Source: Catalinimonas alkaloidigena
Lineage (GTDB): Bacteria; Bacteroidota; Bacteroidia; Cytophagales; Flexibacteraceae
Assembly (NCBI RefSeq): GCF_900100765.1
Contig: NZ_FNFO01000008.1
Coordinates: 124,001-188,000, forward strand
Direction: 5' to 3'
Length of the DNA: 64,000 nt
Part shown: piece after piece, positions 17,756 through 22,593 of the stretch
Layout: each line of letters begins with the position of its first letter
Numbering within the stretch: position 1 is the first letter of the stretch
The notes under the pieces: model-generated
What the model saw: the letters and a program-made list of their open reading frames with translations, nothing else
What the model was told of the DNA's origin: nothing
Databases searched by the model: none
Program-made: the position numbers and the translations under genes

Positions 17756-18934
17756 ATGAGGATCGGCATCGAAGCGCAGCGCTTGTTCAGGACGCATAAA
17801 CAAGGCATGGACGTGTATGCGTTGGAATTAATCAAACACCTCCAGCAGATGGATCAGGAGAACGAGTACTTCATCTTTGTGAAGGCCGACGCTGATACCT
17901 CCTGCCTACCGGACGCTTACAACTTTCACATCGTCGAAGTGCAGGGGCGCAGTTACCCTGACTGGGAGCAGTACTACCTGCCGAAAGCGGCGCTACGCCA
18001 TCAGTTAGACGTGCTGCACTGCACTGCCAATACTGCCCCTTTGCGCTACCATGGCAACCTGGTACTGACCATCCACGACGTTACCTACATGGAAAAAGAG
18101 TCGCTGAAGAACGACGGCTCTACGGCTTACCAACGGGCCGGCAGTCTGTACCGTCGGCTGGTGGTGCCCATGGTGGCGCCGAATGCCTCGCAAGTGATGA
18201 CGGTGTCGTGGTTTCAGCGCAACTGCATCTCTCAATCGCTACACTTGCCAACCGACCAGATTGAGGTGGTGCACAACGGCGTGGGGCATCAGTTTTTTCA
18301 ACCTACCAACCAGGAAAAACGCGAACAGGTACGCGAGCGCTACCAATTGCCGACCCACTACTACTTCTTCTTGGGAAATACGGAGTACCGCAAAAACCTG
18401 ACGGGGGTGGTTCAGGCCTATGCCTTGCTGACGCAACGGCGCAACGACGTGCCGGCGTTGGTAATGAAAGGCATCGACGAACCTTTCCTGACACGCACGC
18501 TGGCTGCCCTCGGGCAACCTGACCTGCGGGAGCGGTGTCGCCTGATCGATTACGTAGACACGGAGGATCTGCCCACCCTCTACGACATGTCCGAAGCTTT
18601 TTTATTCCCGTCGCTCAGCGAAGGTTTCGGTATTCCGATCATCGAAGCCATGGCCAGTGGCACGCCCGTAATTACGTCCGATACGTCGGCGATGCCCGAG
18701 ATTGCTGGCGACGCGGCTTTACTCATCGATCCCTACGATCCGAAAAGCATCGCCGATGCTATGGAGGAATTACTCGACAGACCCTACCTCGCCGAGGATC
18801 TTCGTTCACGAGGTATTCTACGCGCCCGTCATTTCTCCTGGCGCTCTACCGCCGAGCGTACCTTGCAGATTTACCAGCGCTTTAATCCGGAAGACGCCGC
18901 AGCACCTTACGAAGAGACGTTGCTGCATCAGTAG
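17756..18934 (+). CDS. Glycosyltransferase family 4
   Basis: 392-residue retaining GT-B glycosyltransferase. The N-terminal Rossmann half begins MRIGIEAQRLFR...GMDVYALELIKHL, which places the acceptor site. The C-terminal half has the nucleotide-sugar motif EAFLFPSLSEGFGIPIIEAMASGTPVITSD (only part quoted as motif: the EGFGIPIIEAMASG core), around residues 278-310, with the E-x7-E signature. The family fits mannosyl- or glucosyl-transfer in surface polysaccharide assembly; donor and acceptor are not readable. It is a single gene ending at a strong terminator. Confidence 0.9.
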   Translation: MRIGIEAQRLFRTHKQGMDVYALELIKHLQQMDQENEYFIFVKADADTSCLPDAYNFHIVEVQGRSYPDWEQYYLPKAALRHQLDVLHCTANTAPLRYHGNLVLTIHDVTYMEKESLKNDGSTAYQRAGSLYRRLVVPMVAPNASQVMTVSWFQRNCISQSLHLPTDQIEVVHNGVGHQFFQPTNQEKREQVRERYQLPTHYYFFLGNTEYRKNLTGVVQAYALLTQRRNDVPALVMKGIDEPFLTRTLAALGQPDLRERCRLIDYVDTEDLPTLYDMSEAFLFPSLSEGFGIPIIEAMASGTPVITSDTSAMPEIAGDAALLIDPYDPKSIADAMEELLDRPYLAEDLRSRGILRARHFSWRSTAERTLQIYQRFNPEDAAAPYEETLLHQ

Positions 18935-18964
18935 TGGCCCGGTGCGCTTCTGCACAGATCCTAT

Positions 18965-19010
18965 CCACATAAAAAAAGGCGGCCCACAAGGGTCGCCTTT
19001 TTTTATGTGG
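18965..19010. terminator. Bidirectional intrinsic terminator
   Basis: 17-bp perfect outer stem (18965-18981 with 18994-19010), extended inward by a G-T pair and CCC/GGG around the 4-base loop ACAA. Seven A's on one side and seven T's on the other serve both the glycosyltransferase (+) and the LytTR gene (-). Confidence 0.92.
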
Positions 19011-19022
19011 CCTGTTTGTTCT

Positions 19023-19724
19023 TTATAGTTTGTTGATCCGGCCGAAGAAATCGTCCTGATAAGACTTGCTGATCGGAATGTATTTGCCGTTGATCACCAC
19101 CGAATTGTCTTCGATGGTATCGATGTGCTTCAGGTTGATGATGTACGAACGGTGAATCCGCATAAAGTAATCTCCCGATAAGCGCTCGTCGATGGCTTTC
19201 ATAGTCGAGTACACTATGTGTTTGTGGGCGTCGGTTACGATGATCACATAGTCGGACAGGGCTTCGATGTACTGCACCTGGGTCAGGTCCAGCCGCACCA
19301 TTTTACCGTTTACTTTAACGAACAATTCCTCCGGGCCCGATTTGGCATGCACCGCCGGGCCGCTCAGGTTTTTGACTACCCGCTGCACAGCTTTTTCAAA
19401 GCGCGCGTATTCAACAGGCTTGACCAGATAGTCGGCGACTTCCAACGCGAACGCATCTACCGCAAAATTTTCGTGCGACGTAATCAAAATCGTTTCTGGC
19501 ATCTGGGGCAATTGCCGCAGCAGGTCAATGCCGTTCATGCCGGGCATCTCCACGTCCAGAAATAAAATATCGACAGGGTGACTCAACAGATACTGAAGCC
19601 CTTCCTGCCCATTCGACAAGGAGGCCTGTAGATCCAGCTGCTTATTCCGCTCGATATAATGCTCCAGAATAAATCGCACGCTCTCGTCATCGTCGATGAT
19701 CAGGCAGCTAAAGGATGCATCCAA
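19023..19724 (-). CDS. LytTR-family response regulator
   Basis: 233 residues, REC domain then LytTR DNA-binding domain. The acidic pocket is DDDE at residues 11-14, the phospho-acceptor is Asp57 in LFLDVEMPGMNG, and the conserved Lys is in DYLVKPVEY. The LytTR domain from about residue 130 contains FVKVNGKMVRLDL, IEALSDYVII, FMRIHRSYIINLKHI and ISKSYQDDF. The only usable start is TTG at 19724; a stop lies a few codons upstream in frame. No histidine kinase is adjacent, unlike many Bacteroidota LytS/LytTR pairs. It diverges from the PP2C-like gene across 279 bases. Confidence 0.92.
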   Translation of the reverse strand: MDASFSCLIIDDDESVRFILEHYIERNKQLDLQASLSNGQEGLQYLLSHPVDILFLDVEMPGMNGIDLLRQLPQMPETILITSHENFAVDAFALEVADYLVKPVEYARFEKAVQRVVKNLSGPAVHAKSGPEELFVKVNGKMVRLDLTQVQYIEALSDYVIIVTDAHKHIVYSTMKAIDERLSGDYFMRIHRSYIINLKHIDTIEDNSVVINGKYIPISKSYQDDFFGRINKL

Positions 19725-20003
19725 GGTGATATAGTGTTGTGTCTAAAATGAGATTATTACAATTCTACCGTTAATTAATGTTAACTCACCTAAAAAGTCA
19801 AATTTCGCCGAACAGGAGGTCTACCTTTAATTCTTGAGGGATGTATGCCCACCGGGGCAACTATTTTATTCTAATTCTTTTATGCATAGCGTCTCCGTTT
19901 CGGCACTTGGGGTCCAAAACGGGATAACCTGTTAGAAACCAGAGGCAAAGCCATTTTAGCAAGGGTTTGTTCTAAAATGAGCGATGTCTCGATCATGTAA
20001 GTT
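19725..20003. promoter_or_regulatory. Divergent promoter region with three CTAAAATG octamers
   Basis: AT-rich 279 bases between the LytTR regulator and the PP2C-like gene. CTAAAATG occurs at 19743-19750 (+), as its complement CATTTTAG at 19952-19959, and again at 19972-19979 (+). The first and third copies extend to an 11-base direct repeat TCTAAAATGAG (19742-19752 and 19971-19981). The second and third form an inverted pair with 12 bases between. A binding site for the neighbouring LytTR protein is possible but unproven. Confidence 0.4.
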
Positions 20004-20705
20004 ATGAAAGGTACCTACCCTACTCATCTGTCAGCATCTGATCGATCAGTGCACGCTTTAGAATCGTGCTCGTTTTTCTCTCAGTCCTTCGTACTGGAGA
20101 AGAACGTAAGTGCGTTTGGGGGCGTCCATCATTGGTGCATCCAACAGCATCATACACTTTACCTGGTCCTTGTTGACCTGGGCCATCGCGCTCTTCCTAC
20201 CGAAGAGATCGATACGCCCGTCGCCAACCTGATTCGCAATCATCTGAACGGAAATCCGGTCGACCTGATTCACCGCATTACGCAACACTTCGCGCCCACG
20301 GCCGACGAGCCCTATCCCTTCGAGGTGATGGTGATCAAGGTCAGTACCAGCCTGCGGAAGGTGTCGTTTGCGACGACCCACCGCCCCATCTACTTCATCC
20401 GGAACCAGCGCCTGAAGCGGATTTCGACCCGTACAACATCACGCGAACGCCTGAGTAAGAGCGACGTATACTCCTGCCGCTGCAAGTCGGGGGACGTAGT
20501 ATACCTCAGTTCAGGCGGATTTGCAAGACTCGAAGGCGGTCCCAAAAATCTTTCTTTCGGCGAAAGCAATCTGGAAGCTCTTCTCTTCAACAACCACCGG
20601 AATTCGTTCGACGTCCAGCACCAGTATTTGCAGGAAACCATGGATACGTGGCTGGAGCATCGCCGTCCCCACGAGTCCGTCTTGATTCTGGGGGCAGAAT
20701 TCTAA
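20004..20705 (+). CDS. Degenerate PP2C/SpoIIE-like protein, probable pseudophosphatase
   Basis: 233 residues, start ATG 20004. Its whole length follows the SpoIIE/RsbU-type PP2C fold: FGGVHHW where active enzymes have GDFYW, LVDLGHRALP for the D-x-x-GHG-x-P helix start, ATTHRPIYFIRNQRLKRI for the A-x-x-xP-x-xxR strand pair, GDVVYLSSGGFARLEGG for GDxLxLxSDGxxD, and a C-terminal HESVLILGAEF for DDxxxLxI. The metal-binding Asp is therefore missing at three positions (GD to GG, SDG to SGG, DD to HE), and only the Asp in VDLGH may remain. The reading frame is intact, so a binding or decoy role is likelier than a dead pseudogene. No sensor domain is fused. Function inferred only. Confidence 0.7.
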   Translation: MKGTYPTHLSASDRSVHALESCSFFSQSFVLEKNVSAFGGVHHWCIQQHHTLYLVLVDLGHRALPTEEIDTPVANLIRNHLNGNPVDLIHRITQHFAPTADEPYPFEVMVIKVSTSLRKVSFATTHRPIYFIRNQRLKRISTRTTSRERLSKSDVYSCRCKSGDVVYLSSGGFARLEGGPKNLSFGESNLEALLFNNHRNSFDVQHQYLQETMDTWLEHRRPHESVLILGAEF

Positions 20706-20712
20706 CACCTTC

Positions 20713-22434
20713 TTAAAATTCGTGCAAGCGCTGCGGAATGTTCCAACGTACCGCGGCCGAGAAAACGGTGGTTGTCTGGTCGAGCGCGTCGTCGGCACTG
20801 TCCAGTTGCCGGTGGGTAAACTTGGCGTCGAGAAACAAGCGGTGCCGTAGCTGGTAAGTCGCCGTGAAGTCTGCAAAAAGCAGATAGGTCTTTACCCCCT
20901 GTCCGATGTAGTTGCCAAATTCCTGTCGCTTGTAATTGTAGTCGATCAGGATATTCCCACCCCAGTTTGAATTGGGCAGGTCGGTGCCGTACAAGGCGTA
21001 AATCAGCTTTCCGGTTAACGCAAGGCGCGGAAGGGGCTGGTAACGCAAAATGCCGATTCCTTCCCGGAAGTTGGCTCCCAGAGGATGTGCCAAAGGCTGC
21101 TTGTAATGGGTGTAGCTGGTGTAGAGGCTCGAATGGCCGTACATGTAGGGGCGTGCTACGTTGAACTCGGCTTGCAGATCCAGGTTGGGAATGCCTGCCA
21201 CGTCGATGTACTTGAAACCAAGCTGACCAGCCTGTTTGTTGCCCCACCAGCCGCTGCCGTCGAACGTATGGCTTAGGATAAACTCATCAAGCGCCAGTTG
21301 CCCGTACAGCGACAGCCGCCGCCAAAGCACCCACCGTGCATCGAGTCCCAGCAGTACGTTGTCGGGGCTGCCAAGGTCCTGATCGAGCGCCCGGTAGAAA
21401 ATGATCGGGTTCAGGTACTGCAACTCAAATCCATTGCGGCCGGTGGAATCGTTCCGTTCGAACACGATCGATTCGAATATACCGACGTTCAGGTTTTTTA
21501 ACAGGTTGACGCTGAGGTGATGGAAGGCCAGATATTTGGACGGAAAAACGCCATAGCTTCCCTGAGGCGTACCGTTACCAGAAGGGTCCAAGATGAGGTC
21601 CGCCTTCATTTTGGCAAACAGGTTGGTGTATTCGAATCGCCACACCCGCGTGTTCAGTTTCAGAAAAGAGTAATTGTTGGCAAAGTCGGAAAGGATCATC
21701 GACCGATAGCCGTTTCCGATGAAAAGGCGGTCGTGCCCGGCCTGCACATGAATGTGCCGGGTGACGGGAAAGGTGATGTAGCCACGCGCGGTGACAAAAT
21801 CGACGCCAGTGTCATTAAAACGCTTCCAGAAGCCTTCGTGAGGCAGCACGTTGGTAGCACGCATACGGTCGTTGACGTAGCCGGGCAGCTCGGCCTGATT
21901 CTCGGCCATAAACGTGTAGAAGCCTACTTTCCCGTCGATCATGCCGCGCACTTCCAGGCCACGCGTGTTAATGTACAGCGTGGGATCGGTATCGGAGGCT
22001 TGCCCGAGCTGGCCGTAAAAGACGGGATTGACGTGCAGATCAACCGACGCATTGCGGTAGTGGTAAAAGTCCGCAGGGGTACGGTAAAAGACCTTGGCCA
22101 GCGCCCGACGGCTTTCGATCGGGGATGCCATGCTCCACTCGTGGTTATCGGCCTGCAAGAACTGCAGATTGAAGCGATCGCGTGCATTCCACCGGTAGTG
22201 CGCACTATCGAGCAGCAAACTATCGGCCAGCAGCGCAATGCCACGCCGTTCGTAAGGGCGCACGGACGAATGGAACGCCTCGGCCAGTGAGTCGTTGGCG
22301 GCACGTCCACTCCGAATTTCGTACCGCTCAACCAGGTGGTAGTAATCTTTGTCGAGGGGCGCGTACACACTTTGGCTGTACCCGACTCCTCCGAGGGCCA
22401 CCCCCAACAGGAGGCTTAGCAAGAGCTTTCTCAA
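20713..22434 (-). CDS. Wzi/RemB-like outer-membrane beta-barrel protein
   Basis: About 573 residues from a TTG start at 22434 (reads LRKLLLSLLLGVALGGVGYSQ, a good signal peptide). The frame also opens upstream at 22512, but that extension runs through a hairpin at 22466-22489 and places 26 residues before the signal. The mature protein alternates aromatic/polar strands with tight turns and ends in a barrel-closing VRWNIPQRLHEF. Segments HVQAGHDRLFIGNGYRSMILSDFANNY and LQYLNPIIFYRALDQDLGSPDN match the capsule-assembly Wzi family, which includes the gliding protein RemB. It probably anchors or exposes surface polysaccharide. Confidence 0.78.
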   Translation of the reverse strand: MRKLLLSLLLGVALGGVGYSQSVYAPLDKDYYHLVERYEIRSGRAANDSLAEAFHSSVRPYERRGIALLADSLLLDSAHYRWNARDRFNLQFLQADNHEWSMASPIESRRALAKVFYRTPADFYHYRNASVDLHVNPVFYGQLGQASDTDPTLYINTRGLEVRGMIDGKVGFYTFMAENQAELPGYVNDRMRATNVLPHEGFWKRFNDTGVDFVTARGYITFPVTRHIHVQAGHDRLFIGNGYRSMILSDFANNYSFLKLNTRVWRFEYTNLFAKMKADLILDPSGNGTPQGSYGVFPSKYLAFHHLSVNLLKNLNVGIFESIVFERNDSTGRNGFELQYLNPIIFYRALDQDLGSPDNVLLGLDARWVLWRRLSLYGQLALDEFILSHTFDGSGWWGNKQAGQLGFKYIDVAGIPNLDLQAEFNVARPYMYGHSSLYTSYTHYKQPLAHPLGANFREGIGILRYQPLPRLALTGKLIYALYGTDLPNSNWGGNILIDYNYKRQEFGNYIGQGVKTYLLFADFTATYQLRHRLFLDAKFTHRQLDSADDALDQTTTVFSAAVRWNIPQRLHEF

Positions 22435-22465
22435 AACGAAGGTGTTTAGACAATCGACGCAAAAT

Positions 22466-22489
22466 AGGAGGATTTGTGTAAATCCTCCT
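22466..22489. terminator. 10-bp hairpin between the ABC permease and Wzi-like genes
   Basis: AGGAGGATTT and AAATCCTCCT, perfect complements with a GTGT loop. On the minus strand it is followed by ATTTTG. It sits 104 bases downstream of where transcription leaves 22594 and just before the Wzi-like signal peptide, so it could terminate the permease transcript or act in the leader of the Wzi-like gene. Confidence 0.5.
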
Positions 22490-22593
22490 GCGATTCGTAC
22501 TGCCGCCCTCACAGGTTACGCACGTGTGTAGGAAAAGCGAGGAGGCTGCACCTCAGCCCGTTACCCACGCCTTCCGGCCCTAAGTGCCTTGCT

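Follow-up and report, generated by a model that had tools for sequence, protein, structure and literature searches.

A gene of Catalinimonas alkaloidigena encodes a small, sensorless protein of the SiaA-type PP2C family that has lost its metal center. We consider it probable, with moderate confidence, that this protein is a lineage-restricted pseudophosphatase acting by binding, one that would engage another protein or proteins rather than dephosphorylate them. The PP2C fold is recognized by a profile built without the query and by a structure model, three of the four aspartate metal ligands are replaced, and the reading frame is open throughout its 233 codons.

Locus and Gene Neighborhood

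The gene lies in a 64,000-nucleotide stretch of contig NZ_FNFO01000008.1, all of which is referred to here as the window. The features of the locus, numbered from the first nucleotide of the window, are the following.

20004..20705, plus strand: stand-alone SiaA-type pseudo-PP2C; ATG start, 233 amino acids, PP2C fold over approximately residues 23-233
19023..19724, minus strand: LytTR response regulator, divergent neighbor of the pseudo-PP2C gene; widespread in the order, without a PP2C where examined
19725..20003, no strand assigned: intergenic region between the two divergent genes; 279 bp, 39% GC
19733..19752, plus strand: copy 1 of a 20-nt direct repeat, containing TCTAAAATGAG; adjoins the regulator start
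19962..19981, plus strand: copy 2 of the 20-nt direct repeat, 80% identical to copy 1; adjoins the pseudo-PP2C start

The initial annotation described an intact frame and no fused sensor, and both descriptions hold: the frame at 20004-20705 on the plus strand is open over 233 amino acids, and the protein stands alone. Pfam assigned the regulator a LytTR domain (E 6.9e-22) and a receiver domain (E 6.3e-21). The remark that no kinase lies beside the pair is borne out among the 13 proteins around the locus that were scanned with Pfam (the query, the regulator, and 11 neighbors, a subset of the nearby ORFs), and it has to be read together with the 14 LytS-type His_kinase matches present elsewhere in the genome. 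The scanned neighbors comprise a glycosyltransferase, a convergent gene at 20713-22512 that ends 7 bp from the pseudo-PP2C gene and gave a weak match to Wzi capsule assembly (E 7.8e-8), and nine further proteins: a symporter, an NlpC/P60 protein, an AAA-type protein, an ABC transporter pair, a DUF2520 protein, an FtsW/RodA protein, a transpeptidase, and one protein with no Pfam match. A terminator-like stem of 20 pairs (18965-19010) lies between the converging glycosyltransferase and regulator genes.

The Protein Is Predicted to Have a SiaA-Type PP2C Fold

Standard libraries miss this protein, because Pfam gave no match at E ≤ 10, PF07228 (SpoIIE) included, and NCBIfam returned only a weak match to SiaA (E 1.2e-4, residues 108-217, 20.7 bits against a cut-off of 700). 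When the protein itself was used as the query, at least 40 of 59 genomes, its own included, were matched at E ≤ 1e-3, and the relatives found were PP2C domains. An alignment of 34 of these, drawn from 39 distinct relatives after omission of partial or near-duplicate sequences (L003, L019, L025, L034, and L035), shares 18-25% identity with the query, and every one of the 34 matches PF07228. The profile built from these relatives without the query recognized the protein over residues 23-233 with 84.7 bits (E 3.3e-24); the highest score among 2000 shuffles of the query against the same profile was 5.5 bits.

Structure prediction gave the same answer. With the relatives aligned, AlphaFold2 produced a model with a pLDDT of 87.4 and a pTM of 0.86, in which the strands and helices of the PP2C fold were predicted confidently, whereas the protein folded as a single sequence reached a pLDDT of only 49.7 and a pTM of 0.48; the high confidence of the model rests on the alignment of PP2C relatives. 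The best solved match to the model was the PP2C domain of Pseudomonas aeruginosa SiaA, 6k4e (VIA Z 24.1, rmsd 2.5, 215 residues aligned; Foldseek E 1.7e-12), followed by Rv1364c (VIA Z 19.6). The same entry was the best PDB profile match of the alignment (E 1.5e-62, with a profile of 35 rows that includes the query). The aligned model and the query-free profile thus both place the PP2C beta-sandwich fold over the whole domain, and among solved structures the SiaA PP2C domain is the closest. The initial annotation, which had called the protein a SpoIIE/RsbU-type PP2C from end to end and had suggested a profile search and a structure prediction, was right about PP2C over residues 23-233; its RsbU-type naming was set aside, as the SiaA type fits better by both the PDB profile match and the VIA structure match. 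A phmmer search of PDB sequences returned only RESC5 chains (E 0.025-0.038), which were taken as chance matches.

Although SiaA resembles the protein across the whole domain fold, the two differ in architecture. SiaA has a sensor, a conserved N-terminal stretch, and a siaB/siaC operon. The pseudo-PP2C has neither an N-terminal sensor of the SiaA kind (Cache/HAMP/PAS/GAF) nor the operon, both of which the siaA gene of the same genome possesses, and most of the stretch, NYAKRIQxAILP, is missing. The stretch appears to belong to the helices by which SiaA dimerizes, and its loss argues against pairing of the pseudo-PP2C with SiaA through the usual dimer face.

The Metal-Binding Site Is Largely Replaced

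SiaA residue numbers were placed on the protein by counting along the profile alignment with 6k4e, and the roles of the SiaA aspartates as metal ligands or as supporters of the third metal (M3) are those described in PMC7647112. The codons of the metal site are as follows.

20124..20126, plus strand: V41, replaces the Asp of the GD motif (SiaA D457; alignment, with SiaA numbering from PMC7647112)
20175..20177, plus strand: D58, the sole metal-site Asp retained (SiaA D474; alignment)
20514..20516, plus strand: G171, replaces the Asp of the SDG motif (SiaA D600; alignment)
20673..20678, plus strand: E224-S225, replace the C-terminal DD (SiaA D653 and the next Asp; alignment)

Three of the four aspartate ligands present in SiaA are therefore gone (V41, G171, and E224), with the motifs GD, SDG, and DD changed to GV, SGG, and ES (E224 and S225), respectively. 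The replacements put forward in the initial annotation were confirmed residue by residue at V41, G171, and E224-S225; D58, the one ligand that is kept, had gone unmentioned there. Metal-site aspartates at shifted positions, which had been named as grounds for rejecting that reading, were not seen, as the alignments agree with one another at V41, G171, and E224 and the query-free profile alignment is ungapped around these residues. D58 is the Asp of the D-x-T-G-H-G motif, and the loop that follows it is degenerate (DLGHRA) and ambiguous by one residue: in an ungapped alignment SiaA G477 falls on H61, and in the query-free profile alignment the G-H of GHG is kept after D58 following a one-residue loss. 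The M3 supporters D534 and D604 of SiaA are likewise replaced, by E107 and R175.

The relatives do not share these losses. All four metal-site aspartates were present in each of the 40 aligned rows, which represent 39 distinct proteins (rows L091 and L074 are one gene and were counted once), and in every one of 14 additional complete relatives, 9 in other genomes and 5 in the genome of origin; two cut fragments, left out of the 14, display the first two aspartates only, and both are present. The total is 53 of 53 distinct complete relatives. Within the same genome, the SpoIIE-type domains found by Pfam keep the four ligands in eight of eight cases.

With three ligands lost, phosphatase activity by the known two- or three-metal PP2C mechanism is very probably absent, as far as the sequence and the model allow a judgment, and the description of the protein as catalytically dead in the initial annotation is in that sense well supported. 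By its PPM fold, lost metal ligands, and intact frame, the protein classes as a probable PPM pseudophosphatase.

Distribution and Origin

Among the matches listed, no ortholog was found in overlapping draws of 59, 390, 395, and 395 genomes, each of which included the source genome and none of which, among the genomes shown, contained another member of the genus; the three large draws were run at limits of 1e-12, 1e-11, and 1e-11 with mostly only 7 candidates scored where a genome had more, settings under which a stand-alone relative of very high divergence might escape notice. In one of the 395-genome draws, a sample of the phylum, the protein matched only itself at E ≤ 1e-11. Exact peptide words of the protein occurred in 19 stretches of genome contigs, none of them a relative. 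The best outside match in the 390-genome draw (E 7.3e-15, 25% identity) was to a frame of 1150 amino acids, and another top outside match, in a 395-genome draw (E 8.9e-15, 25% identity), was to one of 672 amino acids; both have the Asp ligands.

Plasmid and phage collections gave no match to the protein at E ≤ 1e-3, and transfer by phage or plasmid was rejected on that basis. The GC content of the gene is slightly below that of six neighbors at the third codon position (0.645 against 0.675-0.743) and slightly above it at the second (0.402 against 0.274-0.388); given these values, the gene may have a foreign source.

Alternatives to the Proposed Binding Pseudophosphatase

The main rival to a binding pseudophosphatase is a decaying relic, that is, a superfluous PP2C copy that has shed both sensor and active site and whose frame has stayed open by chance. 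The lack of an ortholog among the genomes searched fits such a history, as does the saturated branch (length 10) of the protein in the tree, where its placement beside L003 (support 82/80) was not used. Conserved residues have also been lost broadly and not only at catalytic positions: where a column is conserved at 90% or more, the protein retains the residue in 2 of the 13 columns that we assigned to the active site and in 13 of the 34 remaining ones (Fisher p 0.17), and at nine further conserved columns it has a gap. Among seven genes scored for synonymous codon choice it ranks lowest, with 0.096 bits per codon against 0.184-0.388 for the rest; three of the six comparison genes were in the training set, and the three outside it still scored 0.184, 0.243, and 0.388. 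Against decay, the coding frame still scores best of the six (0.115, the others -0.207 or less), and the model made with relatives aligned assigns its strands and helices with high confidence. When the SiaA domain of the same genome was subjected to neutral simulation by random base change, at least one stop had arisen by 40% identity in 200 of 200 runs (mean 6.15 stops), whereas the pseudo-PP2C, at 18-25% identity to its 34 relatives, has none in 233 codons. Selection has therefore probably kept the frame open over a large part of its divergence, although a recent loss of function may have followed. We regard the relic as unlikely, if the most serious of the competing explanations. A different objection is that the site is not dead but rebuilt, with H42, H43, D58, H61, E107, H223, and E224 binding one metal ion and the protein having another activity or a sensing function. 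The protein is rich in histidine for its family (15 of 233 residues, or 6.4%; the 34 relatives average 2.4% and reach at most 5.3%), four histidines stand at or beside positions of the lost metal site, and the inactive PP2C PHLPP2 carries a single zinc, as described in PMC12002173. The 15 histidines are, however, spread throughout the protein; because they are abundant along its whole length, the four near the site may reflect composition alone. The Asp ligands are intact in all 53 relatives with which the protein was compared. A rebuilt site with such an outcome strikes us as very improbable.

It is also conceivable, though in our judgment quite unlikely, that the pseudo-PP2C works with the LytTR regulator beside it, either as a target gene reached through the promoter repeat or as a binding partner in the manner of a split RssB. 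The arrangement is suggestive: the genes diverge with 279 bp between their starts, each start has one copy of the 20-nt direct repeat, the 11-nt core of the repeat occurs only three times in 7.1 Mb with two of these in this intergenic region, and position 19767 has a sequence that fits the consensus of a LytTR half site in full. In RssB, moreover, an orphan response regulator itself carries an inactive PP2C domain (PMC10957080). Comparison across genomes points the other way. The regulator is common: 47 of the 59 genomes searched, counting its own, have a match at E ≤ 1e-35 (a figure that takes in paralog-level matches in distant members). The closest named homologs, from Hymenobacter, share 51-52% identity, and in the wider stretches its neighbors differ from genome to genome. 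Elsewhere in the order, the PP2C profile found nothing beside regulator relatives at 29 places (with flanks of approximately 1.5 kb and with 15 of the 29 also covered by wider stretches), while it recovered the locus itself as a positive control. Among 80 wider regulator homologs, with flanks of up to 4 kb, one had a PP2C nearby, a distant partial match in Paenibacillus koleovorans; some of the flanks examined stop at contig ends. On the basis of these counts a conserved pair is not supported, and the proposal of the initial annotation that the two genes form an uncharacterized signaling pair, together with its suggestion that conservation of the pair be examined in related genomes, led to a negative result: the regulator is widespread, the pseudo-PP2C has no ortholog in the genomes searched, and the pairing is not kept in the flanks examined. 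The intergenic sequence also speaks against it, as TCTAAAATGAG was found exactly within 300 bp upstream of none of the 29 regulator relatives (one with one mismatch, three with two mismatches), and LytTR-type half sites, counted when 8 or more of their 9 positions matched, were not clearly in excess (7 against 5.25 +/- 2.35 in 500 shuffles).

Possible Partners and Comparison with Known Systems

A retained binding function in general seems to us somewhat more probable than its absence, and the identity of the partner is a much more tentative matter. The leading guess, a doubtful one, is a SiaC-type phosphoprotein. The pseudo-PP2C would then hold phosphorylated or free SiaC back from the active SiaA phosphatase or from the SiaB kinase. 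The genome has one siaA-siaB-siaC operon, in which SiaA is a 1143-amino-acid Cache-HAMP-GAF-PAS-SpoIIE protein, the second gene encodes a DUF6272 protein that we take to be SiaB-like, and the third encodes SiaC; neither siaB nor siaC adjoins the pseudo-PP2C gene. In Pseudomonas, SiaC phosphorylation is kept in balance by SiaA and SiaB (PMC7647112). A second siaC gene was observed elsewhere (L112 1453-1866; G000:C2:865496), with neither siaA nor siaB in the surrounding 3.3 kb. The most specific form of the idea, in which a free-standing pseudophosphatase would read SiaC-type phosphorylation and leave it unchanged as a built-in dominant-negative of SiaA, possibly through a His-rebuilt one-metal site, is improbable. 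Five STAS matches (four above the cut-off) and matches to RsbW-type ATPases are also present in the genome, which makes a STAS protein a second possible partner.

SiaA, the nearest solved structure, has D457, D600, D653, D534, and D604, all of which are replaced in the pseudo-PP2C. RsbX (3w40) is, like the pseudo-PP2C, a small SpoIIE-type PP2C (VIA Z 17.2 to the model), but it is more distant than SiaA, and its structure was solved with magnesium; it is an active phosphatase. Inactive PP2C domains are already known from RssB (PMC10957080) and from TAB1 and PHLPP2 (PMC12002173). RssB of Escherichia coli is a bacterial adaptor with an inactive PP2C-type domain in which a response regulator is involved, as PMC10957080 describes it; it unites receiver and PP2C in one chain, whereas here there are two divergent genes whose pairing is not conserved and a neighboring regulator that carries a LytTR DNA-binding domain. 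TAB1 and PHLPP2 share the PP2C fold and a degraded metal center (VIA Z 13.8 to the model for TAB1) but are eukaryotic PPM pseudophosphatases that, according to PMC12002173, keep one metal ion at M2. In the open-license literature we found no report of a stand-alone SiaA-type pseudophosphatase and, as a bacterial precedent for an inactive PP2C, RssB alone; the word "inactive" does not occur in the main text, as available, of a 2025 survey of bacterial PP2C proteins (PMC12088040). A stand-alone inactive PP2C would offer an uncomplicated setting in which to study the role of the fold without catalysis, here alongside eight SpoIIE-type domains that retain the metal-ligand Asp residues and two SiaC proteins in the same genome. 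If the gene is instead a relic, it represents a usual fate for a member of a large paralogous family.

Further Observations on the Intergenic Region

Bacteroidota promoters are expected to differ from the sigma-70 type. A scan of positions 18900-20800 for sigma-70-type promoters, the Bacteroidota type being outside its scope, returned two sites, neither of them in the intergenic region. A third copy of TCTAAAATGAG was found in the same genome (L093 1498-1566), where a possible short basic frame of 22 codons begins, upstream of a secreted-looking protein without a Pfam match. Positions 19740-19783 share TGTCTAAAATGAG and GTTAATTAATGTTA exactly with the region upstream of a dnaE-like gene of the same genome (L093 1499-1673). 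Both words are rare, with the 11-nt core of TGTCTAAAATGAG occurring 3 times and GTTAATTAATGTTA 2 times in 7.1 Mb. No 11-nt word of the dnaE region recurs in ten other intergenic regions taken from the first 45 kb of the window, and 162,553 other bases of the genome repeat one 13-nt word of the region and no 14-nt word. In one relative (G002; L076 2034-7366), the closest homolog of the regulator lies close to, and divergent from, a gene that we take to be dnaE-like from its N-terminus. Because the two genes are neighbors there, the shared intergenic words may be traces of an old neighborhood of the regulator and dnaE.
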